Assembly (NCBI RefSeq): GCF_016863395.1
Contig: NZ_BOOU01000048.1
Location: 1 to 64,000, forward strand
Origin: Sphaerisporangium rufum
GTDB lineage: Bacteria; Actinomycetota; Actinomycetes; Streptosporangiales; Streptosporangiaceae
DNA length: 64,000 bases
Reading direction: 5' to 3'
Shown here: positions 50,766 to 64,000 of the stretch, piece after piece
How positions within the stretch are numbered: the first letter of the stretch is position 1
How the letters are laid out: every line of letters begins with the position of its first letter
Program-made: the position numbers and the translations under genes
The notes under the pieces: model-generated
Seen by the model: the letters and a program-made list of their open reading frames with translations, nothing else
Told to the model about the DNA's origin: nothing
The model's database searches: none

Positions 50766-50921
50766 CGAGGCCCGACGCTATGCTTGGCGGCTTAACAGCA
50801 CATATGGGACGGTCGGCGGACGGTATGGTCGGCGCACGCTTCGTGACAGGTAGCTTATGGCCGGTGGCCCACAGTGGGATGGTGCAAGGCCTGTGCAAGC
50901 GCGAGCGGATACGGTGACCAA

Positions 50922-52319
50922 GTGTTGGACAACAACGGCCGGCATGCCCGGCGCCGTTACATCCCCAAAGGGCCGGTCGCCCTCGGGGCCGGTCTGGTGG
51001 CCCTGCTGCTGGTGGTCGGCCTGCTCGTCGTGGCCGCCCAGCGCGAGGCCGGCCGGTCCGGCGGCGGCGCGGCCGCGACGATCCCGGCCACCCCGCAGCC
51101 GCCGCCCGCGGTGGCGGCGCCGCCGGTGACGGCCACCTGGCCGCGCTGGGGGGTGACCCACACCCAGTACAGCGGGGACAACGTGGACGGCACCGACGAG
51201 GACATCCGGCCGCGGGTCGACGACCTGTTCGCCAGGGTGCCCATGGTGCAGAACCAGCACATCATGGGCTGGGGGGCGGGCAATCCCGAGCCGATGCCCG
51301 GCAAGTACGACTTCCGGGACCTGGACCGCCGGGTCCGGCTGATGGCCGAGACCCGCGCCCAGCCCGTGCTCACCCTGTGCTGCGCGCCCGACTGGATGAA
51401 GGGCGGGGCCGAGGGCCGCACCGACTGGGGCAAGATCGAGGTCGCCCCGCGCCGCGAGCACTTCGACGACTACGCCAAGCTCGCCGCCACCGTCGCCCGC
51501 CGCTACCCCACGGTGACCCATTACATGGTGTGGAACGAGCTGAAGGGGTTCTTCGACGACGCCGGCGGGCGCTGGGACGCCGAGGCCTACACCGACCTGT
51601 ACAACCGGGTGTACACCGCCTTGAAGGCGGTCAACCCCAAGATCCAGGTGGGTGGGCCGTACGTGCCGGTCGACAGCCACGTCTCCACCCCGAACGCCTC
51701 CAGCCTGCGCGGCCCGTGGGGGGTGATCGACCAGCGGTCGCTGGACGCCGTCGAATACTGGATCCGCCACAAGAAGGGCGCCGACTTCCTGGTCATCGAC
51801 GCCTCCTCGCTCACCAACGACCAGGGCGCGGTGCCGGACGAGTTCACCGCCCTGAAGAAGTTCTCCGTGATGACCGACTGGCTGCGGCGGCAGGGCGGCG
51901 ACCTGCCGATCTGGTGGGCCGAGTGGTACACGGCCCCGCCGAACGCCGACTGGGACGAGCGGCACCGCACGGCCGTGCAGACCGTCGCCATGATGGAGAT
52001 GGCCCGCAGCGGCGTCGCCACCGCCCTTTACTGGAACCCGCAGCGCAAGAGCGGGGAAGACTGCCCCGGCTGCCTGTGGTCCCCGGCGACCGGCGAGGAG
52101 ATGCCGATGGCCGGCGTGCTCAGCGGGTTCACCCGCTGGTTCCCGGCCGGGGCCCGGCTCGACACGGTGGCCTCCTCCGACCCGCGCGTCCAGGTGCTGG
52201 CCGTCGAACAGCAGATGGTGATGGTGAACACCACCGCCGAGCCGGTCACCGCCCGGGTCGACGGCCGGGACTTCCAGCTCGCCGCCTACGACATCCGGTG
52301 GAGCGGCCGCGGCCGGTGA
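50922..52319 (+). CDS. GH39-like membrane-anchored glycoside hydrolase
   Basis: A protein of about 465 residues. A basic N-terminus (RHARRRYIPKG) and one helix (ALGAGLVALLLVVGLLVVAA) act as a membrane anchor; a Pro/Ala linker leads to a TIM-barrel from about 80. The acid/base Glu is in MVWNELKGFF and the nucleophile Glu in WWAEWYT. The domain resembles GH39/GH-A enzymes such as the exopolysaccharide hydrolase PslG. The start GTG 50922 is chosen before the anchor; a TTG next to it or an upstream ATG are options. It probably trims or cleaves a surface polysaccharide. Confidence 0.8.
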   Translation: MLDNNGRHARRRYIPKGPVALGAGLVALLLVVGLLVVAAQREAGRSGGGAAATIPATPQPPPAVAAPPVTATWPRWGVTHTQYSGDNVDGTDEDIRPRVDDLFARVPMVQNQHIMGWGAGNPEPMPGKYDFRDLDRRVRLMAETRAQPVLTLCCAPDWMKGGAEGRTDWGKIEVAPRREHFDDYAKLAATVARRYPTVTHYMVWNELKGFFDDAGGRWDAEAYTDLYNRVYTALKAVNPKIQVGGPYVPVDSHVSTPNASSLRGPWGVIDQRSLDAVEYWIRHKKGADFLVIDASSLTNDQGAVPDEFTALKKFSVMTDWLRRQGGDLPIWWAEWYTAPPNADWDERHRTAVQTVAMMEMARSGVATALYWNPQRKSGEDCPGCLWSPATGEEMPMAGVLSGFTRWFPAGARLDTVASSDPRVQVLAVEQQMVMVNTTAEPVTARVDGRDFQLAAYDIRWSGRGR

Positions 52320-52352
52320 CCCGTGCCCCGGCGCCGTCCGTCTCCCCGTGAC

Positions 52353-52370
52353 GCCCGGCTTCTGCCGGGC
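52353..52370. terminator. Short hairpin terminator
   Basis: GCCCGGC-TTCT-GCCGGGC: a 7-bp stem with a four-base loop, 33 bp after the hydrolase stop. No T-run follows. It marks the left boundary of the lower-GC island. Confidence 0.6.
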
Positions 52371-52507
52371 TCAACGGCACCTTGTGGCGCGTAAGGTGAC
52401 TCGTTGACATTGTCGGGTTCGGAGGAGATCACCGCTGTCAACGGCGAGGGCCGGTCGCCGCACGAGTGACAGAAACCGGCCTCGAATCCGATGGACGCCC
52501 CCTCCTC

Positions 52508-52876
52508 TCAGATTTCCAGTTGGACGCGCTCGAAGATGTCGGCGTCCGTCTCCTGCTGCCAGGCAGGGAGGTCGTCCCAGTCGGCGACGTAGGACGGTTT
52601 GGGATCGGCGATGTGCTTGTGGATCTGGGCGATCCAGCAGAGCGCGACGAATCGGCCTTTCTGCTCACGGGTGAGCTTGGCGGTATTCCCATCACTGACC
52701 GTTATAAAGTCCAAGATCTGCTGGTAGACGGCGGCAGCCGCTTGGCGTTCCCAGTCAGGCGTCTGATCCCACGGGGTGATATAGCCGGGCTTGGGATCAC
52801 CGGGGTAGTACTTGGTGACCCCGGCGATCCACGCCTCGCGGAAGATACGGCCGGGTTCCTCGGTCTGAGTGCTCAT
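52508..52876 (-). CDS. Small protein with two internal repeats
   Basis: A 122-residue acidic protein of unknown function. It contains two related halves: GRIFREAWIAGVTKYYPGDP-KPGYITPWDQTPDWE and GRFVALCWIAQIHKHIADP-KPSYVADWDDLPAWQ. The shared pattern (W-I-A, P-K-P-x-Y, W-D, P-x-W) suggests a duplicated module of about 50 residues; the pattern is loosely like RyR-type domains. It is coupled by an ATGA overlap to the decayed regulator upstream. Lower GC and codon use match the rest of the island. Confidence 0.7.
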   Translation of the reverse strand: MSTQTEEPGRIFREAWIAGVTKYYPGDPKPGYITPWDQTPDWERQAAAAVYQQILDFITVSDGNTAKLTREQKGRFVALCWIAQIHKHIADPKPSYVADWDDLPAWQQETDADIFERVQLEI

Positions 52877-53280
52877 CCTGATCCTCTCGGTCTCACGGGG
52901 TCCGTCAGCTGGGTGATGCGGGTGCTGAGATGGCTCACCCTGGGGTCGGCCAAGAAGGGGGTGAGCCGGGTCTGCAGGGACTGAAGCTTACGTCCGACGT
53001 ATCCCGAGGATTGGGTCTGCTCAGCGAGGGAAACGGCGGAACCTCCGCTCTCAAGGATCTGGTCCAGGTCGTTGCAATTGACGCCGATCATGGCCAGGTC
53101 GGTCAGGACGCTGCCCTTTCGGCGCAGTGAGATGGTCTTACCGAGTGCCTCGGTGAGGGCGCTCTCGGCGAGATCGGTGCGACCAAGGGCCAGGTAACAG
53201 CCACCGCGTTCTTCTGCCAGCCGTGATCCGTCGAAGCGAAGCCCGGTACGTCCCCGTTCACCAAGGTCAGCGTACGGGAC
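52873..53280 (-). pseudogene. C-terminal remnant of an XRE/TPR-type regulator
   Basis: The frame reads GERGRTGLRFDGSRLAEERGGCYLALGRTDLAES, ALGKTISLRRKGSVLTDLAMIGV and SGYVGRKLQSLQTRL. This is the usual C-terminal TPR part of actinobacterial proteins that begin with an XRE helix-turn-helix. No N-terminal domain and no start codon with a ribosome site are found; the upstream frame (to 53487) is Arg/Pro-rich and lies across the divergent gene. It looks truncated, and keeps its ATGA overlap with the next gene. Confidence 0.65.
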
Positions 53281-53402
53281 GCTCCGCGGATGCCGTGGGA
53301 ATGCGGCTAGACGCAGCAGAGATGCGGAGTTGCTGCGCTGGTTCGGTGGCGATCTCCTCGGTTGACTAAAAGTAGTTGACCGACCACCGAAACGGAGTGT
53401 CG

Positions 53403-53795
53403 ATGCTTCGTAGAACGAACCGCATGTGCCATGGTGGCGCGGACGTGCCCGTCGTTGATTTCGACCAGCCACGCGAGTGGCGGGCACCGCGCCACCTGCA
53501 CCAGCAGGTGGACGCCGCCCAACATCTGGAAAGTCTCCGGGTCGCTCTAGGCCGGCTCGACCCCGGCCTATTCGTGAGACTGGAGCGGCTGACGGGCGGC
53601 CCGCCCCAGCTCCGCATCATCTTGTACGGATTCGGGGCCTTGTCGGAAATCATCTACTATTTGCCCGGCCGGGGAGCCGGTGAAGGGGGACACTACGGCT
53701 GGGCATGGGGTGAAGTCATCACCTCGGTCCTGGAACCCAGCAAAGCGGCCACCCAAATCCTGCGCGCTCTGAACGTACGAGGGCGGCACGTATGA
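53403..53795 (+). CDS. Small hypothetical protein, first gene of the island operon
   Basis: A protein of 130 residues starting at ATG 53403 behind a GGAG site. It has an Arg-rich start, the segment HLHQQVDAAQHLESLRVALGRL and a C-terminal part with LRIILYGFGALSEIIYYLP and ITSVLEPSKAATQILRALN. I do not recognise the family. Its stop overlaps the SAH-hydrolase-like gene in an ATGA. Two GTTGAC motifs 15 bp apart (near 53362 and 53377) precede it and may be promoter or operator elements. Confidence 0.65.
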   Translation: MLRRTNRMCHGGADVPVVDFDQPREWRAPRHLHQQVDAAQHLESLRVALGRLDPGLFVRLERLTGGPPQLRIILYGFGALSEIIYYLPGRGAGEGGHYGWAWGEVITSVLEPSKAATQILRALNVRGRHV

Positions 53796-54997
53796 CCGGG
53801 GTCCAGCGCGCTCTTGCACCCCCTGTGGTCCTGTCCGGCCTCGGCGGGGCCGAGGCATTCTTCGCCGAAGTCGTCGCAGGTCTGCCGGCGAGCACGGCAG
53901 CAGCCGTGGTGGTCACCCATCTGCTGCCCGGCCAGATGGACTTTCTGGCAGCGTTCGAGCATGTCGCCCAGGTCGTAGCGGTATTGCCCAAACCCAAGTC
54001 CGCAGACCTTCGTATCCGGAAGCAGGTCGAAGCAGTCCATCGCTGTGACGTCCTGGACCGGGCCCGATTCACTGATCCGCTGTGGCTCACCGCCTACTTG
54101 GAGGATCGGGCAGCCGGACGGCGGCTCGTGCTGGCGGACATCGGCGGGTACTTCGCTCCCGCTCTCGCCGAGCTGTGCGGCACGTTCTCCGGCCAGATCG
54201 CCGGGGTCGTTGAGGACACCGAGAACGGCTTGCGGCGCTATCTGCAACTGGACCCGCTCCCATGCCCGGTCTACAGCGTCGCGCGCAGCCCGCTCAAGGA
54301 GCCGGAGGACCGTCTGGTCGGAGAGGCCATCGTGTTCTCGATCGAGTCATTGCTGCGTCGTATGGGGGAGATCCTTCCCGGCCGCCGGGCGTGTGTGCTG
54401 GGCTTCGGCAAGATCGGCTCGGGTGTGGCAGCGGCTTTGCATGCCCGGCACGTCGTGGTGACGGTGCGCGACACCGATCCGGTCCGCCAGGCGCAGGCCA
54501 TCGCAGCCGGCTTCCACTCGATGCCGCTGCCCGAGGCTCTGTCGGGCGCGGACCTTGTCGTCAGTGCTACTGGCAGACATGCCATCGGCATGGAACACCT
54601 CCCCCTGCTGCGGGAGGGCGCCTTCCTGGCGGGCGCCACCTCCGGGGACGACGAGTTCGACCTCGGCAGCCTCACCGGCGAGACCAGCGGGTTCATTCGA
54701 CAGGACGTGATCGACGGCGTGGTGCGCTATGGCCGCCAGGGGCGAGCCTTCTTCCTGCTCGGCAACGGGAACGCGGTGAACTTTCTGCACACCTCCGCGA
54801 TGGGGCCTGCCATCCACCTCGTCAAGGCCGAGATCGTCGCCGCAGCGGCGCGCCTACTGTCCGAGCCTCACGAGCCGGCCCTGTATGAGGTTCCGGCACG
54901 AACCCGGGCGCGAATCGCCGCGGCCTGGGTCGACAAGTTCCGGCGGCCGGCGGACGCTGTCCGGTCGCCCTTCGACGGACGAGAGAGGAACAAATGA
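53792..54997 (+). CDS. S-adenosylhomocysteine-hydrolase-like NAD-binding protein
   Basis: A 401-residue protein that follows the SAH hydrolase fold. VEDTENGLRRYLQ corresponds to the EETTTGVHRL region of the family, and the NAD-binding domain is ACVLGFGKIGSGVAAAL followed by VRDTDPVRQAQAIAAGFH, then DLVVSATGRHAIGMEHLPLL. Key differences: the SVTKSKFDN active-site segment reads SVARSPLKEPED, so the catalytic Lys seems lost, and the C-terminal Lys/Tyr tail of true SAH hydrolases is not found. It likely acts on another nucleoside or sugar substrate. It is coupled to both neighbours by four-base overlaps. Confidence 0.8.
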   Translation: MTGVQRALAPPVVLSGLGGAEAFFAEVVAGLPASTAAAVVVTHLLPGQMDFLAAFEHVAQVVAVLPKPKSADLRIRKQVEAVHRCDVLDRARFTDPLWLTAYLEDRAAGRRLVLADIGGYFAPALAELCGTFSGQIAGVVEDTENGLRRYLQLDPLPCPVYSVARSPLKEPEDRLVGEAIVFSIESLLRRMGEILPGRRACVLGFGKIGSGVAAALHARHVVVTVRDTDPVRQAQAIAAGFHSMPLPEALSGADLVVSATGRHAIGMEHLPLLREGAFLAGATSGDDEFDLGSLTGETSGFIRQDVIDGVVRYGRQGRAFFLLGNGNAVNFLHTSAMGPAIHLVKAEIVAAAARLLSEPHEPALYEVPARTRARIAAAWVDKFRRPADAVRSPFDGRERNK

Positions 54998-55605
54998 TCA
55001 TTGGAATAGAGGGCGTGAGCTGTACAGGAAAGACCACCCTGGCCGGCAGTCTGGCTGAACGGCTTGGCTGGGAGGTGATGGACTGCTACTTCCACGTTGC
55101 CCCGGATCCCTCCTCGCTGGGACGGCCGATCGCCACTTCCGAAGCAGAGCAACTCGCCTCCCTGGCCGCGCATTTCCCGGTGGAAGCACAGCGACACCGG
55201 CAGGCTCTGCGGGCGGCCGCCCGCGACGGCGGGGTGATTCTCGACCGCACGATCAACACCCTGCTCGCCCACGTCCGAGCCGTCGGCCGCCTTCAGGACC
55301 TGAACGCGACCGTGACGGCCCGTGCCATGGTCGCCCAGCAGATCGCCGCCGGTGCGGCCACCGTGCCCGACCTGACGTTGCTGCTGATCGGCGACGCGGC
55401 CGTCCTGGCCGACCGTGCCACACTTCGTCCGGACCTCCCGGCGATCTATTACGTGCCGGCCTTCGCCCGGCACTTCAACGCCCACTTCGAGGACCCCATC
55501 GGTCGGTGCGTCCGCCTGGACGCCACGGCCGCTCCCGGCGCGGTTGTCGACGCGGCCCTTGCCGCCATTTCCCTGGTTCAGACCACTCATGCCAGAAGGC
55601 GTTGA
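54994..55605 (+). CDS. P-loop nucleotide kinase-like protein
   Basis: A 203-residue protein with a Walker A motif GVSCTGKTTLAG at residues 6-17, a DRTINTLL segment near 85 and a Walker-B-like LTLLLIGDA near 128. Size and layout fit small kinases of the thymidylate/adenylylsulfate or sugar-kinase type. The acceptor is unknown; in this operon a nucleoside or sugar is likely. ATGA overlap with the gene before and a 17 bp overlap with the next. Confidence 0.75.
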   Translation: MIIGIEGVSCTGKTTLAGSLAERLGWEVMDCYFHVAPDPSSLGRPIATSEAEQLASLAAHFPVEAQRHRQALRAAARDGGVILDRTINTLLAHVRAVGRLQDLNATVTARAMVAQQIAAGAATVPDLTLLLIGDAAVLADRATLRPDLPAIYYVPAFARHFNAHFEDPIGRCVRLDATAAPGAVVDAALAAISLVQTTHARRR

Positions 55606-56500
55606 TGTGTACGCCTTCGGCCTGTGCGTTGACGAGCAGTACCTGCTGCCGTCCCTGGTCACCCTGGGTTCGCTCGCCGAGACCATCTCCGCCGCCGAGC
55701 GGCGCTCTGCCGCGGTACGGGTGCTGACGCTCGATCTCACCCGTCAGCACGCCGCCACCATGGCCGCGTTCGTGGACAGGATCGGATTCGGATCCTTCGG
55801 GCTGCGGTGGGCGCGCCCGTCCAGGCGGGCTCTGAAGGTCGACGACGACTACATCACCGAGACCGCCTACCTGCGGTTCAAGTTCACCCGACGATTCCTG
55901 GACCGGCCCTACCTCATCTACGTCGATGCCGACACTCTGCCCGTCGACGACATCACGGGCCCGCTCGCAGACCTGGGCACGGACCGGCTCGGCCTGGTCG
56001 CGGACGAATTCAACTCCACCATCGGCCAGCGTACGGCCCTGCCCGGTCTCGCTCAGGATCGCCCCGACCTTGCGGGCCGTCCTTACTACAACTCCGGCAT
56101 GTGGTGGACGTCCGCCGATCTTCTGGACACGATCCGTGCCGGTGTTGAGGTCGCCTTAGCGACGGGACGCCGGTACCTCTACCACAACGACCAGGACGCC
56201 CTCAACCTGTGGCTGCTCGACCACCCGCATGTCCAGCCGGTGCCAGGTCGCTACAACACCTACGAGCTGAGCCGATTTCTGGCCCGCAGCGACTGGACGC
56301 GCCGACACACCACCCGCGACCCTCACCCTACCGACCCGGCCCTCCTGCACTTCGTCGGGAGCGCCAAACCGTGGCTGACCACGACTCCATCCACCGAACA
56401 CGTGCGCCTGTACCGGACGGCGTTGGCGCGTACCAGCCGGGAGTTGCGGCGGCTCGGTGACCTCGGCATCGACGCGCAGCCGTCCAGGAGCCGGCCATGA
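55589..56500 (+). CDS. Glycosyltransferase family 8 protein
   Basis: A 303-residue GT8 enzyme, GT-A fold. DEQYLLPSLVTLGSL at the start, TETAYLRFKFTRRFLD, the metal-binding DxD in IYVDADTLP (near 113), PYYNSGMWWTSADLLD and HNDQDALNLWLLD are typical. It should transfer hexose from a nucleotide sugar with retention. It starts at an ATG inside the kinase gene. Confidence 0.88.
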   Translation: MPEGVDVYAFGLCVDEQYLLPSLVTLGSLAETISAAERRSAAVRVLTLDLTRQHAATMAAFVDRIGFGSFGLRWARPSRRALKVDDDYITETAYLRFKFTRRFLDRPYLIYVDADTLPVDDITGPLADLGTDRLGLVADEFNSTIGQRTALPGLAQDRPDLAGRPYYNSGMWWTSADLLDTIRAGVEVALATGRRYLYHNDQDALNLWLLDHPHVQPVPGRYNTYELSRFLARSDWTRRHTTRDPHPTDPALLHFVGSAKPWLTTTPSTEHVRLYRTALARTSRELRRLGDLGIDAQPSRSRP

Positions 56501-57360
56501 CCGCCTCACCCGGATGGCCGGCCGCCGAAATAGCCTGCCGCACCCTGCTCGCCCGGGGCTTCTGCCGGGCCGACCGACTGGCCAAGAGCCCCAGGGCGGC
56601 GGTTTACCGGGTCACGCTCCTCGACGGCCCCGGACCGCCCACCGCGATCATCAAGCTGTACGCCGGCTCTAACCGCTGGAAGGCCACCCGAGAACACCAG
56701 GTGCTTACGCGATTGGCGGTCATGGAGCAATTCGGTGTGCCGACCGTCCTAGGTGCTGGAGCGGTGCCAGGCGTCGACGTCACCGCCTTGGCCCTCACTG
56801 ACCTCGGTACCTCGACCCTGGGCGACGCCGTCGTGGAAGGTGTTCTCGCCCAGGCCCAGGCATTGAAGGAACTCGGCCGGCTGCTGGCCTGCTTCCACCG
56901 CTTCTCCCAGGAGCCGAACTTCGAGTCTCCTCTCGCCACTCAGGTGCTCGACCTTCAGCGGCGTCTTCCCGCAGAAATCCACGATGCCACCGCGCGAGCG
57001 TTCCGCTCGGTGATCGGCCTGTCCCACGGGCGATCAGCGGTCTGGTGCCATGGCGACCTTCACTTGAACAACGTGCTGCTTGCCCCCGACCCTCATCTCA
57101 TCGACTTCGAGCAGGTCGGTCATAACCTGCCCGAATACGACCTCGCGCAGACCGCCGTCACCACTGGTGCCCTCACCCCGGCTGAGCGGGCTCCGATCGT
57201 CGAGGGCTACCACCGGCATGTGTGTGATGAGCTTCTGAGCGGCCTGATCGTCTTCCAAGCGGTCCGGGGCTGGTGGTGGTCCGCTGTTCAGGAGCGACGC
57301 GATATCGAGCTGTGGGAGGACCGTCTCAAGCTGGTCCTCGCCCACGGCGCCCCTACCTGA
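56497..57360 (+). CDS. APH-type phosphotransferase in the island operon
   Basis: A 287-residue kinase of the aminoglycoside phosphotransferase/choline-kinase fold. The N-lobe has TAIIKLYAGSNRWKATREHQVL; the catalytic loop is VWCHGDLHLNNVLL with His-Gly-Asp and Asn (near 185), and the metal Asp is in HLIDFEQVGHNLPEYDLAQ. It could phosphorylate a pathway sugar or the product. ATGA overlap with the GT8 gene. Confidence 0.85.
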   Translation: MTASPGWPAAEIACRTLLARGFCRADRLAKSPRAAVYRVTLLDGPGPPTAIIKLYAGSNRWKATREHQVLTRLAVMEQFGVPTVLGAGAVPGVDVTALALTDLGTSTLGDAVVEGVLAQAQALKELGRLLACFHRFSQEPNFESPLATQVLDLQRRLPAEIHDATARAFRSVIGLSHGRSAVWCHGDLHLNNVLLAPDPHLIDFEQVGHNLPEYDLAQTAVTTGALTPAERAPIVEGYHRHVCDELLSGLIVFQAVRGWWWSAVQERRDIELWEDRLKLVLAHGAPT

Positions 57361-57385
57361 CACCTCTATCTGGCAGGAGTCTCGA

Positions 57386-58126
57386 ATGGAGCAGTCCGAG
57401 CCGACCCTTTCGGTCATCATCCCGGCCTTTAACGAGGAGAAGTACCTGCCGCGCTACCTACCGAGTGTCCTGGACTCCCTCAGACGCTGGGAGCACCACA
57501 GCGGACTGCGCGGCGAGGTGATCGTCGTGGACAACCGCAGTACCGACAAGACCGCGCACCTCGCGCGGGAGCTCGGCTCTCACGTCATCTACGAGCCCGT
57601 CGCTGGCATCGGGCGGGCCCGTAACACCGGAGCAGCCATAGCACGCGGTGCTTACCTATTGTTCATCGACGCGGACGTGCTCTTTCCCGCCGAGGGCATT
57701 TCGAAGATCGTCAGAGTCCTCGACACGGTGCAGTGCGTAGGAGGAGCGATCCCACCCCGGTACGAGCCGACCAAGATCGGCATCCGACTGCTCGTTGCGG
57801 CGTGGGCACTCTACCGGCGGTTCAACGGTGGAGCCCAAGGAGTCACCCAGTTCTGCACCCGGGCCGCCTTCACTGAAATAAACGGCTACCGTCCCGACCT
57901 GTTCATGAGTGAAGACGTAGAGTTCTTCGCCCGGCTCACCCGCCACGGTAAGCGGATCGGTGCTCCGGTCAGGCACCTGACCGGCTTGTGGGTCCGGCCC
58001 TCCCATCGCCGCTTCGAGCAGTGGCCGAGCTGGCGAATGATTCTTTGGGCTAATCCGCTGACCGCGCACCTGTTCCTGTCCTCCCGCCGGTTCTGGCGGA
58101 ACTGGTACGAGCACACCGTCCGCTGA
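57386..58126 (+). CDS. Glycosyltransferase family 2 protein
   Basis: A 246-residue GT2 enzyme. LSVIIPAFNEEKYLPRYLPS, the VVDNRSTDKTA nucleotide loop, GIGRARNTGA, DxD in LFIDADVLFP (near 93) and FMSEDVEFFARL with the acidic base are present. The C-terminus is basic and hydrophobic (RMILWANPLTAHLFLSSRRFW), suggesting membrane contact. It starts 25 bp after the kinase gene. Confidence 0.9.
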   Translation: MEQSEPTLSVIIPAFNEEKYLPRYLPSVLDSLRRWEHHSGLRGEVIVVDNRSTDKTAHLARELGSHVIYEPVAGIGRARNTGAAIARGAYLLFIDADVLFPAEGISKIVRVLDTVQCVGGAIPPRYEPTKIGIRLLVAAWALYRRFNGGAQGVTQFCTRAAFTEINGYRPDLFMSEDVEFFARLTRHGKRIGAPVRHLTGLWVRPSHRRFEQWPSWRMILWANPLTAHLFLSSRRFWRNWYEHTVR

Positions 58127-58136
58127 GGGAGCCCCC

Positions 58137-59024
58137 GTGAATAGGAGAACCCTCCCGCAGCCCGACGATGTCGGCATCTATACCTTTCCCCAGGATCTCG
58201 TGCAGGCTCACCTCGCCCACCAAGAAGCTCTGGCGGCCCGCCGTGACAAGGGGGAGTCATCGATCATCAAGGTCACCGCTCCTTACCTCCAGTACACCTA
58301 CCTGATCGAGGAACGCCGGCCCCAAGGTCGCCCGGTCGTAGCCATCGAACCTCACCACGACGATCTCGCCCTATCGGCGAGTGGGTCCTTTCTTGCCCGA
58401 CCCCGACCGCTCACCGTCGTGACCGTGTTCACCAACACCAACAGCGCCGACCGGACGGTACGGGCCCGACGCTTCGACCGGACCCTCATCTCCCAGTTGC
58501 GGGCGCAGGAGTCCCGTCAAGCGCTCCGACCACTGCGCGCGTGCCATCATCTTCTCGGCCACACCGACGCCGTGCCACCGTACGGTCCCTACAGCCGTGG
58601 CGATCTCGATCGGGTGACCGCCGACCTCGAAGAGATTCTGGCCGGCCGGGGCGACGCCGAGATCCTCGCCCCGGCCGCCGTGACCCGTCACCCCGACCAC
58701 CTTCTCGTTCATGAAGCCGCCAAGCGGCTGGGCTGCCGATGGTTCTGGGAGGACGTGGCGTTCTGGCAGACCTACGCCCTGTCGGTCGATGACCTGCACC
58801 TGTTCTACGAACGCACTGCCAGCGTCCTTTCCGGCGAGCTCACGGACATCAGCGACGTAGTGCTGGACAAGCTCACCCTGCTTTACCTGCACTCCTCCCA
58901 ACTCCAGCCACTGCACGCGATGTACCGGCCGATCCGGTACGCCTGGACCACCGGTTCGGGCCTGCGCGCCCAGAAGCCTTCGGCCCTGTACGCCGAACGT
59001 TTCTACCGGAGCGTGACGTCATGA
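58137..59024 (+). CDS. PIG-L family deacetylase
   Basis: A 295-residue zinc-dependent LmbE/PIG-L deacetylase. The metal motif is IEPHHDDLALSASG (near 63), and the later histidine motif is TRHPDHLLVHEA (near 183). Such enzymes remove N-acetyl groups from GlcNAc-containing glycosides, as in mycothiol, teicoplanin or GPI synthesis. Here, with three glycosyltransferases, it points to an amino-sugar-bearing product. It is preceded by a GTGAATAGGAG start region and overlaps the GT4 gene by four bases. Confidence 0.88.
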   Translation: MNRRTLPQPDDVGIYTFPQDLVQAHLAHQEALAARRDKGESSIIKVTAPYLQYTYLIEERRPQGRPVVAIEPHHDDLALSASGSFLARPRPLTVVTVFTNTNSADRTVRARRFDRTLISQLRAQESRQALRPLRACHHLLGHTDAVPPYGPYSRGDLDRVTADLEEILAGRGDAEILAPAAVTRHPDHLLVHEAAKRLGCRWFWEDVAFWQTYALSVDDLHLFYERTASVLSGELTDISDVVLDKLTLLYLHSSQLQPLHAMYRPIRYAWTTGSGLRAQKPSALYAERFYRSVTS

Positions 59025-60082
59025 CCGGTCACGGCACTGTTGTGTTCGTGTGGCGTCGTATCCCGCCGCCGTTCCTGATCGGCGGCGCGGAGGTCTCCCA
59101 GCAGTTGCTCGCCGAGCAGTTCACCGCAGCCGGCTGGACGACCATCTATCTGGCGTCCCACGAGCCCCCTTGGAGTCAGGCCTCCGAACTCTCATCAATG
59201 GTGCGGCATTTGAACGGCGCCGGGATCGCCGTCGACGTGCTCGAGAAACAGCAGAAATTCCACTACACCTGGAACGGTGTCGACATACGGGTGGTCCCGC
59301 AAGTCCACTTGCTCGCCGAATTACGCCGCGTTCTCCGTGAGGTGAATCCGGACCTGGTCGTGACCTCGCAGGAGGGATCAGCCGAACTGGCGGCCACAGC
59401 CCGCCCGTTCACAACGGTTGCGGGCTGGCTCCACTCGGTGTCCAAAACCGGGTTCCACGTCTTGGATGGTAAACCTCAGATCGCGCTTGCGACCTCTCGA
59501 TTCGTGTGCTCACGCGTTCCCCGATCCCAGGCAGCAGTGCTGTTCTATCCGCCGTTCGCCCCAGCCGCCCAGGCCGGACCTGCGGTCACCGGCGACCTTC
59601 TCATGGTCAATCCCGTCCCTGCCAAGGGATCCGCGCTGGTGCGCCGTCTCGTCGAAATCATGCCCGAACGGCGATTCACCTTGGTGGAGGGCTGGTGGGA
59701 CACCTCTGCCGAATTCGCCCAGCTTCGCAATGTCACTTGGGTGCCGCGAACCTACGATATGGCCTCCCTGTACACCGGACATCAAATACTGCTTGTTCCA
59801 TCCACGGTCGAAGACGCCTTCCCGCGCGTCGTCGTTGAAGCCGGGCTCCACGGACTCCCGTCGCTGGGATCGACGCGGGGCGGCATCCCCGAGGCGATCG
59901 GGAACGCCGACCTGCTGGCCGCACCTGATGATCTTGAGGCGTGGGTTGCCCTCATCCGCAACCTGACCGGATGTGCGTTGACGGTGGCCGCTCAGCGGGC
60001 GCGTGAAGTGGCGATACCGATGACAAGGCCCTGCATCTCCGAGCTGATCGCGATGGGAGTCATCGCGGGTCAGCCGGCCTGA
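59021..60082 (+). CDS. Glycosyltransferase family 4 protein of the island
   Basis: A 353-residue GT-B enzyme. The N-terminal half has IPPPFLIGGAEVSQQLLAEQF; the C-terminal donor half has LLMVNPVPAKGSALV (near 190), LLVPSTVEDAFPRVVVEAGLHGLP with the GT4 acidic pair (near 255) and TRGGIPEAIG. The last gene of the operon; it overlaps the convergent kinase gene by 13 bp. Local GC is about 57% in a sampled line (59221-59280), far below the host. Confidence 0.88.
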   Translation: MTGHGTVVFVWRRIPPPFLIGGAEVSQQLLAEQFTAAGWTTIYLASHEPPWSQASELSSMVRHLNGAGIAVDVLEKQQKFHYTWNGVDIRVVPQVHLLAELRRVLREVNPDLVVTSQEGSAELAATARPFTTVAGWLHSVSKTGFHVLDGKPQIALATSRFVCSRVPRSQAAVLFYPPFAPAAQAGPAVTGDLLMVNPVPAKGSALVRRLVEIMPERRFTLVEGWWDTSAEFAQLRNVTWVPRTYDMASLYTGHQILLVPSTVEDAFPRVVVEAGLHGLPSLGSTRGGIPEAIGNADLLAAPDDLEAWVALIRNLTGCALTVAAQRAREVAIPMTRPCISELIAMGVIAGQPA

Positions 60083-61119
60083 AAAGCATCCACGACTTCG
60101 TCGAGGCGTTCGCTCCACCAGTCCAGCAGCCGTTCACCCGACGCCCACAGAGCATCAGGACCATGATCGCCCTTGTCATAGTGCCACTGAAGCTGCCAGA
60201 AGTCCGTCATTCGTTTCCACCACAACCGCCGGACCGCATCCGCCAGCGCCTCGTCCGTGATCGTGACGATCGACCGGTACCCCGCGACAAAGGCCGAGAT
60301 CCGCCGTAAGTCAAGGCATCCCTCGTCATTGGTGAACTGCACCTGGGCCGTCCGAACCACCTCCTCGGCGTACGGACGAACCGCCAGACGGTCCCAGTCC
60401 AGTACCGCGGTGATCTCACCGTCATGCCAGAGCAGGTTGAACGGCTGAAGATCCCCATGCGTCCAACCTGCAGGCCCGATGGGGACCTCATCCATCGGCC
60501 GGCGTTCCGCGCGAGTGTTGATCAGAACCTTCCTGCGCTCCAGGCGATGACGAGTATCGACGTCGAACGGCCCGGCCTCGTCCAGAGACTTGATCACATC
60601 AAGGAATCGTTCGGCATCTTCAAGGGCGGCCTTCGGTGTTGTGACCTTCGCTCTAGGAGCGACCGTGGGCCGGTCCAAGCCGGTGGCCGGCGAAGCAAGC
60701 ACCAGATGGATACGGCCGACCAGCTCCCCCAGATCTCGTGTCTCGCTCAGATTCAAAGAGGTACCTTGCCGGTGCGCGCCATTCGCCCACTCCAGGAGGC
60801 AATAGCCGCGTTCGTCAATTTCTACGACCGGGTCCGTGTCGACCAAACGCGGAACACAGACCGGCAGCCCTTCAGCGCCGAGAACGCCCAGGACCTGGAG
60901 GCTTCTGCGTGCCTTCGACAACGTCACATCGACGATCTGCTTGAGCGCGAAGACACCGCGTCCTGTCTCCAGTCGCCAGTTGGGATTCATCATCCCCTCG
61001 GCGATGAAGGCCACGTGACGGATCTCGCCGAGCCCGAACCGTTCCGTGATCCTCGCGAGCTCGCTCTTGGTGATCCGGCCCCGAGCTGCTTGCTGCACGG
61101 CAGAGGTCTCATCAGTCAC
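60070..61119 (-). CDS. APH-type phosphotransferase, convergent with the island operon
   Basis: A 349-residue kinase of the APH/homoserine-kinase-II fold. The N-lobe has FALKQIVDVTLSKARRSLQVL, the catalytic loop is WTHGDLQPFNLLWHDG (near 245), and the metal Asp is in AVLDWDRL. The start is a GTG at 61119; the open frame that continues upstream beyond it is a shadow of the membrane protein gene. A separate, convergent transcript would suit a resistance or self-protection gene for the product of the neighbouring operon, but this is inference. Confidence 0.82.
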   Translation of the reverse strand: MTDETSAVQQAARGRITKSELARITERFGLGEIRHVAFIAEGMMNPNWRLETGRGVFALKQIVDVTLSKARRSLQVLGVLGAEGLPVCVPRLVDTDPVVEIDERGYCLLEWANGAHRQGTSLNLSETRDLGELVGRIHLVLASPATGLDRPTVAPRAKVTTPKAALEDAERFLDVIKSLDEAGPFDVDTRHRLERRKVLINTRAERRPMDEVPIGPAGWTHGDLQPFNLLWHDGEITAVLDWDRLAVRPYAEEVVRTAQVQFTNDEGCLDLRRISAFVAGYRSIVTITDEALADAVRRLWWKRMTDFWQLQWHYDKGDHGPDALWASGERLLDWWSERLDEVVDAFQAG

Positions 61120-61400
61120 CCTCAGGAGGCTATGCCACCGTCCCCTGCACGTCTCGCTGAACGGCGGGAAACAACTGTGCAGTAGAGACGGCACTTCCTC
61201 GGTTGGATCGTCGTGACCACGCAGACCGCGGGCAGCGGGAAGGCGCACTCGCCGAGCCCGCCGCGGGTGAGCCCGTCCAGCCCAACGGCGCGCAGCAGAT
61301 CGTTCAGGCTGCCGTCCGTGGCGTGGACACGCCGCCAGGCGACCGCCACGATCAGCTGGGGGCAGGAAGATCACGTCGCCGATGACGTTGCGCCGCCCGG
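61120..61400. other. Intergenic region at the island's right end
   Basis: No gene with a convincing start is seen. A 75-codon minus-strand frame (61122-61349) is open but has no clear ribosome site or recognisable domain. GC rises from island level to host level across this stretch, so the island boundary is here. I found no inverted or direct repeat that could be an attachment site. Confidence 0.45.
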
Positions 61401-64000
61401 TCAGCCGGTGAGGGTGAGGAAGCGCTCGACGATGACCGCCAGCGCCACCACCGTCGCCACCGACCCGGCCACCACCAGCCGGCGCCGGACCCGCGGCCCG
61501 CCCGCCCGGCCGCGCAGCCGGGACAGTTCCGCACCGAACAGCGCCGCCGCCGCGATCGCCAGCGCCGCCAGGCCGACCGGCGTCCACGGGGTCGACGGAT
61601 CGCCCACCGAGGCGCTGGCGGTCGGCGGCGGGATCTCCGACCCCCGCGGGTAGGAGCGCAGCGTGTACAGCGCGGCGTCGGCGTTGGCGTACACACGTTT
61701 GAGGGCGGTCGAGCGGTCCAGCGACGCGCGGAACCGCGGCCCCCAGTCGGCGGGGAATCCCTCGTTCAGCTCCAGGTAGGCCGCCTGGCCCCGCGTCATG
61801 ATGACGAAGGTGTTGCGGGGCTTGCCGCGCAGCGCAGTGAGCACCCCGGCCAGGTTCCGCGGATCGGCGGTCACCAGCGCCTGGTCGTAATCCACCCGGT
61901 CGATGTCGCGCTCGCGCCACGGGATGGTGGGGGTCACCTCGTCGCCCAGCCGCGGCACCAGGTACAGCACCCGGGCGCTCGGCCGGTCGTGCTCGTACAC
62001 GTAGCGCATCGCCGCGACCTCGCCGGTGGTGACCCGCTCGAACTTCTCGTTGCCGTACCGGGCGAGGATGAACGCCACCGACAGCGCCAGCGCGACGACC
62101 GCGGCCAGCACCGCCGACACCCGCCGGGTGAGGTGCGGGCCGAACCGGCGCGGCCGGATCCGGAACGGGACGGTCTCGCCCTCCCGGCCGCCGGTCGAGT
62201 GCGCGGGCAGGTTCGGGAAGAACGCGTAGGCGCCCAGAATGCACGCCGCGGGCAGCGCGAACATGTAGACCCGCAACCCGATCTCGCCGCCGTAGCTCTG
62301 CAGCGCCAGGGCCAGCGTGGGCACGCAGAGCAGCAGCACCGCCACCCGGTCGCCGACGCCGCGCCGCAGCCGGCGCAGCAACCCGACCCCGGCGAACAGC
62401 AGGATCACCCCGGTGATCCCGAGCCGTACCTTGAGCACCAGGGCGTGCGAGGGGTCGGTGCCCACCAGTCGGTCGCCGGTGTTCTCCTGCAGGTTGGCGA
62501 AGATCTTGCCGATCCCGCCGAACAGCTCGTCGATCCGGCCGCTCCAGAACGGGGTGGCCTGGTAGTTCACCCAGGCGATCACCAGCAGCCCGAGGAACAC
62601 CGGCAGCGCCAGCGACAGCGTGGTGCGCCGCAGCACGATGAGTCCCGTCAGCGCGCCGAGCATCATGAACGGGGTGATCTGGTGGGTGGCGATGGTGGCG
62701 CCGAACAGCGCGACCAGCAGGGTGAGCAGCACCACCCGATCGGTCACCGTCGTCGGCCGGGACGGCAGCTCGCCGGGGGTGAGGGCGTCCAGCCGGGCCA
62801 GCAGCCGCCGGAGCCGCCCCCGGGCGGGCGGCGGCGCCGTCCGGGGCTGCACCCGGCCGAACCAGCGCAGCAGGAACGCGACGAACACCAGGTACAGGGC
62901 GTAGGTGAAGCCCTGCGGCGAGAAGTAGTCCTGCCCGATCCACTGGGTGAGGATGAACAGCAGCGCGGCGAACCACCGGGCCCGGGTGGTCGCCACCAGC
63001 TGGCGCAGGATCAGCACGAACGGCAGCAGATAGAGCAGGTTGGACACGAACGGCGTCCACTGCAGGATGGCCGCGGTGTCCTGCACGCCGGCGGCGCGCA
63101 GCACGAACCCGAACAGCGCGAAGAACCCCGGCCAGGCGAAGCGGGCGTCCAGCCCGGGCAGCGCCTCGCCGGCGCGTCCGATGTACTCGGCGAAGCCCGC
63201 GTGGATCCACGCGGTGTGAAAACGCGGCTCGGTCTCCACCAGCGCCGCGGCGCCGTGCAGTACGAAGGTGACCGCGGTGAGTTGGAACAGCAGCACGCCG
63301 CGCCGGTCGGTGTTCTGGGTCAGCGTGACGAAGAACGACACGATGATCATCGCGATCGCGGCGAACGCCGTCACCGGCAGCGCGGAGATCAACCCGAGGC
63401 CGCCGATGCGGTCCAGGTCGACGCCGCGCATCGGCCCGTACGGCACCCGCAGCGCGAGTACGTACATGACCAGGCCCTCAAGGGTCAGCAGCGGCGGCAG
63501 CCAGGCGGCCACGCTCGCCGCCAGCCGCCCGGCCGCGGCCGCCTCGGTGGCGGCCGGCCCGGCCGGTGCGGGAGTGATCTCCGGCTCACCGGTCCGGCCG
63601 GCCGGCGGCTCGGCCGCCCGCTCCGGTCCGGCCGGTGCGGGGTCGTCGTGGACGGCGGGTATGACGGCGGTCTGCGGGTCGCCGGCCGGCTCCGCATCTG
63701 GTTCTGGTTCGTCTGGTGCGGGGTCGTCGTGGACGGCGGGTATGACGGCGGTCTGCGGGTCGCCGTCCGGTTCTGCCTCGGGTTCTGGTTCGTCTGGTTC
63801 GTGGACGGCGGGTATGACGGCGGTCTCCGGGTCGCCGGCCGGCTCCGCGTCTGGTTCCGGCTCGCCGGGTGCGGGGTCGTCGTGGACGGCGGGCTCGCCG
63901 GCCGGGGGCGCCGGCGCCGTGCGGCGCTCCTCCCGCACCGCGGCGAAATCCGCCGTCTCCGGCTCGACCGGCCCGGTGTCATGGTCGGTGGCCTGGTCCG
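61401..64000 (-). CDS. Large polytopic membrane protein, 5' end outside the window
   Basis: The frame is open from the window edge to a TGA, giving at least 866 residues. An acidic, Pro-rich repeat region comes first; then about a dozen membrane helices run from LLTLEGLVMYVLALRV through AIHQ-like ATHQITPFMMLGAL to ARYG; after them an outer domain of 200 residues (RVLYLVPRLGDEV, NTFVIMTRGQAAYLE) and a last helix near the C-terminus. The layout resembles GT-C glycosyltransferases or polysaccharide polymerases. A GTG at 63938 is a possible internal start, but no stop separates it from the edge, so the true start is probably outside. Confidence 0.75.
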   Translation of the reverse strand, partial: DQATDHDTGPVEPETADFAAVREERRTAPAPPAGEPAVHDDPAPGEPEPDAEPAGDPETAVIPAVHEPDEPEPEAEPDGDPQTAVIPAVHDDPAPDEPEPDAEPAGDPQTAVIPAVHDDPAPAGPERAAEPPAGRTGEPEITPAPAGPAATEAAAAGRLAASVAAWLPPLLTLEGLVMYVLALRVPYGPMRGVDLDRIGGLGLISALPVTAFAAIAMIIVSFFVTLTQNTDRRGVLLFQLTAVTFVLHGAAALVETEPRFHTAWIHAGFAEYIGRAGEALPGLDARFAWPGFFALFGFVLRAAGVQDTAAILQWTPFVSNLLYLLPFVLILRQLVATTRARWFAALLFILTQWIGQDYFSPQGFTYALYLVFVAFLLRWFGRVQPRTAPPPARGRLRRLLARLDALTPGELPSRPTTVTDRVVLLTLLVALFGATIATHQITPFMMLGALTGLIVLRRTTLSLALPVFLGLLVIAWVNYQATPFWSGRIDELFGGIGKIFANLQENTGDRLVGTDPSHALVLKVRLGITGVILLFAGVGLLRRLRRGVGDRVAVLLLCVPTLALALQSYGGEIGLRVYMFALPAACILGAYAFFPNLPAHSTGGREGETVPFRIRPRRFGPHLTRRVSAVLAAVVALALSVAFILARYGNEKFERVTTGEVAAMRYVYEHDRPSARVLYLVPRLGDEVTPTIPWRERDIDRVDYDQALVTADPRNLAGVLTALRGKPRNTFVIMTRGQAAYLELNEGFPADWGPRFRASLDRSTALKRVYANADAALYTLRSYPRGSEIPPPTASASVGDPSTPWTPVGLAALAIAAAALFGAELSRLRGRAGGPRVRRRLVVAGSVATVVALAVIVERFLTLTG
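63636..63890 (-). repeat. Coding 81-bp tandem repeat in the membrane protein
   Basis: About three units of 81 bp, one shortened to 72 bp, encode a 27-residue motif built on TAVIPAVHDDPAP and EPEPDAEPAGDPQ. They form the acidic cytoplasmic tail before the first helix. Repeat starts on the plus strand fall at about 63636, 63717, 63798 and 63870. Confidence 0.8.

Follow-up and report, generated by a model that had tools for sequence, protein, structure and literature searches.

Genes and composition of the island

The first 64,000 nucleotides of contig NZ_BOOU01000048.1 from Sphaerisporangium rufum (hereafter the window) contain an island of low guanine-plus-cytosine (GC) content that carries a compact array of glycosyltransferase, deacetylase and kinase genes (Table 1). 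These genes are designated A to I, with A–H on the plus strand and I convergent on the minus strand. The GC content of the island is 65.4%, compared with 74.4% for the remainder of the 64-kb window, and the island is the lowest-GC 9-kb stretch in a sliding scan of the window. At third codon positions, GC is approximately 72–85% in the island genes and 94–96% in the two flanking genes. A sharp compositional change had been described in an earlier, sequence-only reading of this DNA from two 60-base lines, and both counts are exact on recounting (34/60 at 59221–59280 and 48/60 at 51001–51060). A single line of this length is weak evidence, lines with 34 or fewer GC occurring 15 times among 872 in positions 1–52300 and 9 times among 150 inside the island (the right flank being uncounted), but the low GC of the block as a whole is clear.

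The insertion site is approximately delimited by comparison within the genus. The GH39-like and membrane-protein genes that flank the island adjoin each other, without it, in all 10 other genomes of the genus, and DNA similarity to these congener sites is lost near 52341 and picked up again near 61393. The gap between the matched flank stretches spans 48–208 bp in 8 of the 10 congeners, about 1.1 kb in genome G592, 2.3 kb in genome G567 and about 9.1 kb in the window. Because the block is missing from the congener sites and the composition of the island differs, gain by this strain is favoured over loss in the others. The extra DNA at the same intergenic site in G592 (L142) and G567 (L143) perhaps marks an insertion hot spot. 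No integrase is seen in the window's own island, and at its right end, positions 61213–61392 on the minus strand resemble by eye a decayed permease fragment of a sugar ABC transporter.

Table 1. Features of the island and its flanks in the window (aa, amino acids; bits, profile score)
Feature	Position	Strand	Support
Left flank, GH39-like protein, outside island	50874..52319	+	PF01229 30.1 bits; conserved in 10/10 congeners
Island, low-GC insertion between the GH39-like and membrane-protein genes	52342..61392	.	limits approximate
F31, 122-aa protein without family	52508..52876	-	open reading frame clustering: beside regulator in both Acrocarpospora clusters; no Pfam/PHROGs match
Remnant (last ~109 residues) of NsdA-family XRE/TPR regulator	52915..53241	-	58.7% identity to residues 319–427 of 434-aa protein L066:715-2019
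A, small protein, 139 aa, TTG start	53376..53795	+	outside conserved cluster
B, SAH-hydrolase-like NAD enzyme, 401 aa, optional partner	53792..54997	+	PF00670 59.7 bits
C, P-loop kinase of thymidylate/deoxynucleoside kinase type, 203 aa	54994..55605	+	profile, predicted fold
D, GT8 glycosyltransferase, LgtC-like	55589..56500	+	ATG 55589, GTG 55607 possible; PF01501 56.1 bits
E, APH-type small-molecule kinase, 287 aa	56497..57360	+	PF01636 66.8 bits
F, GT2 glycosyltransferase, 246 aa	57386..58126	+	PF00535 92.4 bits
G, PIG-L/LmbE N-deacetylase, 295 aa, GTG start	58137..59024	+	PF02585 35.5 bits, cut-off 28.2
H, GT4-type glycosyltransferase, 353 aa	59021..60082	+	PF13692 44.6 bits
I, convergent APH-type kinase, ~349 aa, GTG start at 61119	60070..61119	-	PF01636 83.7 bits
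Right flank, 845-aa protein, by eye a membrane protein, outside island	61401..63938	-	conserved in 10/10 congeners; no Pfam match

The eight plus-strand open reading frames (ORFs) are tightly packed, with overlaps of 4, 4, 17, 4 and 4 bp and gaps of 25 bp between E and F and 10 bp between F and G, in agreement with the 4–17 bp overlaps noted earlier. The 3′ end of H is in turn overlapped by I over 13 bp. All eight ORFs of the original inventory exist; the convergent kinase I and the regulator had been overlooked. Seven of the genes A–H reach a Pfam gathering score, C only barely (27.3 against 27), and A has no match. The plus-strand ORFs 52466–52984 and 60424–61185 were rejected as genes, the former being antisense to F31 and the latter to kinase I. 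The full-length Acrocarpospora counterpart of the regulator matches the NCBIfam model NsdA_fam_reg with 182.7 bits against a cut-off of 75, and by this sequence comparison the NsdA-type regulator of the window is truncated.

A conserved core with a patchy distribution

Scanning 84,980 species genomes with two peptide patterns taken from a three-sequence PIG-L alignment, an approach that gives a lower bound, retrieves 31 loci related to G: 28 in Streptomyces, two in Acrocarpospora and one in Phytomonospora. Genes C, D, E, F, G, H and I are present together in 29 of them; the exceptions are one locus without I at a contig end and one without D and E. In 26 of the 31 loci the order is D E F G C H forward with I opposed, whereas the two Acrocarpospora loci read B C D E F G H with I opposed, which is the order of the window. 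The position of C thus differs, being between G and H in Streptomyces but ahead of D in Streptosporangiaceae. The gene-neighbourhood comparison proposed in the sequence-only reading therefore recovers the same gene order elsewhere, and the genes are not scattered in relatives, D to I remaining together in 29/31 loci. From this co-occurrence and order, C, D, E, F, G, H and I are taken as the core.

Genes A and B lie outside the conserved core, and the operon is otherwise conserved as a unit. The view of all eight genes as one functional set is accordingly not supported: C–H are conserved together, but A is unmatched in the related clusters and B is optional. Matches to A occur in 23 of 60 relatives and are mostly weak, the best in another genome (G396) reaching 44%. 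Only three loci, those of the window and of the two Acrocarpospora, have B inside the operon; one Streptomyces locus with the D E F G C H/I order carries B some 6 kb past I. Homologues of C are present at 31/31 loci, and I is present at 30/31 as well as in 3/3 clusters of a second type described below. The window protein F is 65–66% identical to the Acrocarpospora proteins, and the PIG-L tree places the window together with Acrocarpospora (100/98) and separate from Streptomyces and Phytomonospora. Genes often lying upstream of the Streptomyces copies encode a HAD hydrolase, a regulator of the XRE type and a protein of 150 aa (families F6, F5 and part of F0; for example L114:6742-7194); this last protein has no Pfam or PHROGs match and is resolvase-like by look.

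The occurrence of the cluster is patchy. PIG-L relatives of this kind are found in 1 of 11 genomes of the genus, in 4 of 297 genomes of the family (its own genome and one remnant included) and, in a class sample of 394, only in its own genome; the family remnant holds pieces of E, F and G. One copy resides on a Streptomyces zaomyceticus plasmid, surrounded by integrase and transposase genes. Moreover, a relaxase gene, partial in several cases, lies near 14 of the 31 loci, with plasmid homologues annotated as relaxase and MobC, compared with 0 of 37 B-family loci (L060–L096) in a rough control. Among viral contigs, 47 pattern matches were obtained, none of which was confirmed as a relative. Collectively, the patchy distribution, the plasmid copy and the relaxase association point to a mobile, self-contained pathway. 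Elsewhere in the genus, genome G543, which lacks a PIG-L match, contains a decayed copy at another place (L080:7803-8681), in which a broken B gene precedes the first 38 residues of C.

Catalytic features of the encoded enzymes

The enzyme families on which glycosylation, N-deacetylation and phosphorylation had been predicted are borne out by Pfam and profile matches. No variation is seen at active-site residues of C, D, E, G and I in their alignments, which combine the window with 22/31 loci for C (alignment A7), 20/30 for I (A8), 19/30 for E (A9), 13/30 for D (A10) and 18/31 for G (A11); one reading of C (L112) and one of B (L103), with two stops each, were left out.

The deacetylase G contains a metal site formed by H73-x-D75-D76 and H188, invariant in 19/19 rows, with approximately 111 residues between ligands 2 and 3. 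LmbE-like deacetylases are described in PMC4101496 as having an HXD1D2 plus His metal site with 97–148 residues between these ligands. G agrees with this family in both motif and spacing, in addition to exceeding the Pfam gathering score, and its best PDB match is the natural-product enzyme Dbv21, a glycopeptide GlcNAc (N-acetylglucosamine) deacetylase, at an E-value of 0.0013. The C-terminal half of H weakly matches the GT4 enzymes 5ze7 (E 1.5e-4), 3c4q (2.5e-4) and 3c48 (2.7e-4), the last two of which are MshA. Neither G nor H matches the NCBIfam mycothiol (MshA/MshB) or aminoglycoside equivalog models at E 0.001. The profile of D matches LgtC at 3.1e-12, and D100 and D102 of its DxD motif are invariant in 14/14 rows, while F scores 107.7 bits against the arsenosugar glycosyltransferase model TIGR04283, below its cut-off of 182.

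Kinase C is related by profile (A7) to thymidylate kinases at 1.2e-6, and its AlphaFold2 model, with a predicted local distance difference test score (pLDDT) of 94.5, is matched by Foldseek to TMK, deoxyadenosine kinase and AbmG. The C proteins of Streptomyces and Streptosporangiaceae share just 25–31% identity, yet the P-loop and a DR motif are kept. Kinases E and I are both of the APH type, scoring well above the PF01636 cut-off of 23.2 bits and retaining an invariant HxDxxxxN motif and Asp. In E, residues H185, D187, N192 and D203 are invariant in 20/20 rows, and the nearest profiles are corramycin phosphotransferase (1.9e-10) and hygromycin-B 7″-O-kinase (2.1e-9). The model of I (pLDDT 87.6) has as its nearest folds homoserine kinase, N-acetylhexosamine 1-kinase, APH(9)-Ia, which acts on spectinomycin, and AmiN of amicoumacin, but it scores only 63.5 bits against the NCBIfam homoserine kinase equivalog (cut-off 271). 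An assignment of E or I as actinobacterial glucosamine kinases was rejected, the signature Q-x2-RE-x2-YA-x3-LP-x-W given for these enzymes in PMC6520443 being present in 0/21 A8 rows and 0/20 A9 rows.

Gene B encodes a member of the S-adenosylhomocysteine (SAH) hydrolase superfamily that binds, by prediction, nicotinamide adenine dinucleotide (NAD). Its residues 113–381 align with PDB SAH hydrolases at E-values down to 1e-19, while it scores far below every NCBIfam adenosylhomocysteinase model (best 84.5 bits against 275; TIGR00936 78.8 against 497.6). For the angustmycin enzyme AgmF, PMC8599513 gives D129, K184, D188 and H299 as essential, with the Lys and Asp acting on the ribose. The equivalents of K184 and D188 are kept in 22/22 and 21/22 relatives of B, respectively, and the DxGG Asp in 22/22, whereas the residue aligned with H299, the second catalytic histidine, is Ser in 22/22. 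B therefore has the Lys/Asp pair, DxGG Asp, NAD fold and PF00670 match of the superfamily and departs from true SAH hydrolases. B is expected to bind NAD and could oxidise a hydroxyl group of a sugar, but ordinary SAH hydrolase activity is not foreseen.

A phylum-wide search with B is uninformative, as 356 of 396 genomes match and the matches among those listed are mostly at 25–38% identity, as expected for the housekeeping SAH hydrolase. At 1e-30, relatives occur in 30 of 297 family genomes, its own included. Plasmids of Lactiplantibacillus, Streptomyces, Rhizobium and others also carry matches, Lactiplantibacillus accounting for 40 of the 64 matching plasmid records; on a Lactiplantibacillus plantarum conjugative plasmid (L062:7316-9122), phosphohydrolase and MFS transporter genes precede the SAH-hydrolase-like gene. 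An obligate pairing of B with kinase C was rejected, since most stand-alone B loci (L070–L095, for example L074:8641-10388) have by eye a NUDIX hydrolase next, often with a GntR-like regulator near, and constitute a widespread gene pair. A third neighbourhood (L084, L085 and L088) includes a NodU-like carbamoyltransferase (L084) and, by eye, methyltransferase, phosphatase, epimerase and KdsB-like genes.

A second cluster type, present in three family genomes (L067, L068 and L069), shares B (60–64% identity), C (51–54%), I (48–55%) and a GT8 protein (29–32%) with the island and is without GT4, PIG-L and this GT2. In their place it has dehydratase/epimerase-like, Gfo/Idh-like and DegT aminotransferase-like proteins (L068) and an alcohol dehydrogenase (L067), all scoring below cut-offs. 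These shared genes suggest that the two types have their chemistry in common and differ in how the sugar is supplied, the amino sugar in the second type seemingly provided by sugar-nucleotide chemistry.

A proposed glycoside pathway and its alternatives

Tentatively, and with somewhat less than even confidence, the island is read as a horizontally acquired mobile operon that makes a phosphorylated glycoside with at least one glucosamine-type sugar on an acceptor that is possibly a nucleoside. The substrates, the order of the steps and the role of the product are proposed here from the enzyme families, whereas the island, its conservation, gene order and patchiness and the catalytic motifs are observed. 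Counted in favour of the proposal are the co-occurring core, the patchy distribution with its plasmid and relaxase links, the preserved motifs, the closeness of E to antibiotic kinases and of G to a natural-product GlcNAc deacetylase, the fold of C, and the second cluster type, in which B, C, GT8 and I stand beside genes that look like those of amino-sugar synthesis. One glycosyltransferase, most likely H, would add an N-acetylated amino sugar from uridine diphosphate N-acetylglucosamine (UDP-GlcNAc), and G would remove the acetyl group from the transferred sugar. D and F would attach further sugars, while C, E and I would phosphorylate the acceptor or the product. E and perhaps I may act as self-protecting kinases, or the phosphorylation could be cryptic, with the phosphate later removed; the upstream HAD hydrolase gene of the Streptomyces copies may be cited for such a removal. 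The stepwise modification of a small acceptor, put forward in the earlier reading, is in keeping with these families, whereas the nature of the acceptor is a point on which we infer. Since the island has no scaffold, sugar-nucleotide or exporter gene, the acceptor is probably a ready-made primary metabolite, and a nucleoside is favoured on account of the nucleoside/nucleotide-kinase fold of C and, where B is present, its membership of the SAH-hydrolase superfamily.

Precedents for this choice exist in nucleoside pathways, each with clear differences. Members of the superfamily of B are linked to nucleosides through AgmF in angustmycin (PMC8599513) and through the SAH-hydrolase-like AnmB, Her4 and HcdB (PMC6794829), and AbmG is a nucleoside kinase (PMC12691670). 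B resembles AgmF as a superfamily member in a natural-product setting with the D129, K184 and D188 equivalents kept, but AgmF needs H299 where B has Ser, and the angustmycin genes named in the relevant passages of PMC8599513 include no glycosyltransferase or PIG-L. The herbicidin and aureonuclemycin clusters (Her4/HcdB and AnmB) likewise share an SAH-hydrolase-like protein in a nucleoside cluster, but its neighbours there are radical SAM, oxidoreductase and methyltransferase genes in the available text of PMC6794829, in place of the GT8/GT2/GT4, PIG-L and kinase genes of the island. Kinase C has its fold class in common with albomycin AbmG and kin, at approximately 21% identity to AbmG and with the remaining cluster genes different.

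Several observations weigh against this interpretation. The nucleoside proposal is drawn from predicted fold classes, and in the Foldseek list for C thymidylate kinases outrank AbmG, which stands at rank 27. C scores 29.5 bits against the deoxythymidine monophosphate (dTMP) kinase model TIGR00041, below its cut-off of 83.25, and shares with dTMP kinases only the fold class and P-loop. No B lies beside the operon in the 28 Streptomyces loci or the Phytomonospora locus, the conserved core contains no nucleobase, nucleoside-modifying or ribosyl gene, and an exporter was not found. Choline, homoserine and sugars are also substrates of APH-fold kinases. Finally, the relaxase association could reflect a shared insertion site, the 0/37 control coming mostly from other taxa.

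A possible though less than likely alternative, nearly as good as the nucleoside proposal, is an aminoglycoside-like pseudo-oligosaccharide built on a cyclitol or sugar acceptor. Here H would transfer GlcNAc and G would deacetylate it, on the pattern of butirosin or mycothiol, and E and I would confer resistance as kinases of the aminoglycoside type. The combination of GT4 and PIG-L follows the logic of these two pathways, and the kinases nearest to E are those of corramycin and hygromycin B. BtrD is an LmbE-like deacetylase of N-acetyl-paromamine according to PMC4101496, and the HXDD plus His metal site described there for BtrD, mycothiol MshB and other LmbE-like deacetylases is common to G. 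The similarity of G to solved members is nevertheless weak, without an equivalog match for either G or H, and the ORFs scanned in the island include no cyclitol synthase or aminotransferase. Two L068 proteins of the second cluster type, one resembling an inositol/UDP-GlcNAc dehydrogenase and the other a PseC-like aminotransferase, each with a score under the cut-off, would suit such a product, but C and B are left unexplained by it.

It is rather unlikely that the operon instead modifies a macromolecule or the cell envelope (a glycolipid, a wall glycan or the nucleotide pool), for example as a mobile defence or surface trait and not as a source of a secreted metabolite. The lack of exporter and scaffold genes and the mobile setting are compatible with this function, as are the restriction-like genes seen by eye in some B-family loci and one Acrocarpospora locus. 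However, 0 of 10 translated ORFs, kinase I not among them, matched a PADLOC defence model, no relative was recovered from viral contigs, and two small-molecule-type kinases with a glycopeptide-type deacetylase suit a metabolite better. Lower still in probability is a resistance or detoxification cassette that glycosylates and phosphorylates an outside antibiotic: the two APH-type kinases and the plasmid and relaxase association fit it, but three glycosyltransferases and a deacetylase far exceed the needs of inactivation, and the set is kept together in 29/31 loci. Ordinary vertical genes in a low-GC stretch, forming no functional unit, are scarcely credible, even though all the enzyme families are common in actinomycetes, given that the block is missing at this site in 10/10 congeners and its gene order is kept across three families.

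For the proposed glycoside pathway, a stronger formulation is conceivable and somewhat more speculative: a new family of mobile operons, transferred among actinomycete families, that would turn a ready-made nucleoside into a phosphorylated amino-glycoside through three glycosyltransferases, one deacetylase and three kinases, with an SAH-hydrolase-fold enzyme lacking the second catalytic histidine recruited in Streptosporangiaceae and possibly a new NAD-dependent sugar chemistry. What is new is the combination, all parts being known enzyme families. The statement of the sequence-only reading that no described pathway has this combination stands, in that neither a description of the cluster nor an assigned product for homologous clusters was found in the open-access literature, which misses most subscription papers. 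If the operon does make a phosphorylated amino-glycoside, it would represent a compact orphan pathway of seven core genes and approximately 6 kb in at least 31 sequenced species, and, with several carrier species held in culture collections, its product would be reachable by cloning. The SAH-hydrolase-like family of B is itself a widespread branch of a very well-studied superfamily. The presence of homologues of antibiotic-inactivating kinases within such a unit would, if the proposal is true, connect self-protection with mobile resistance.

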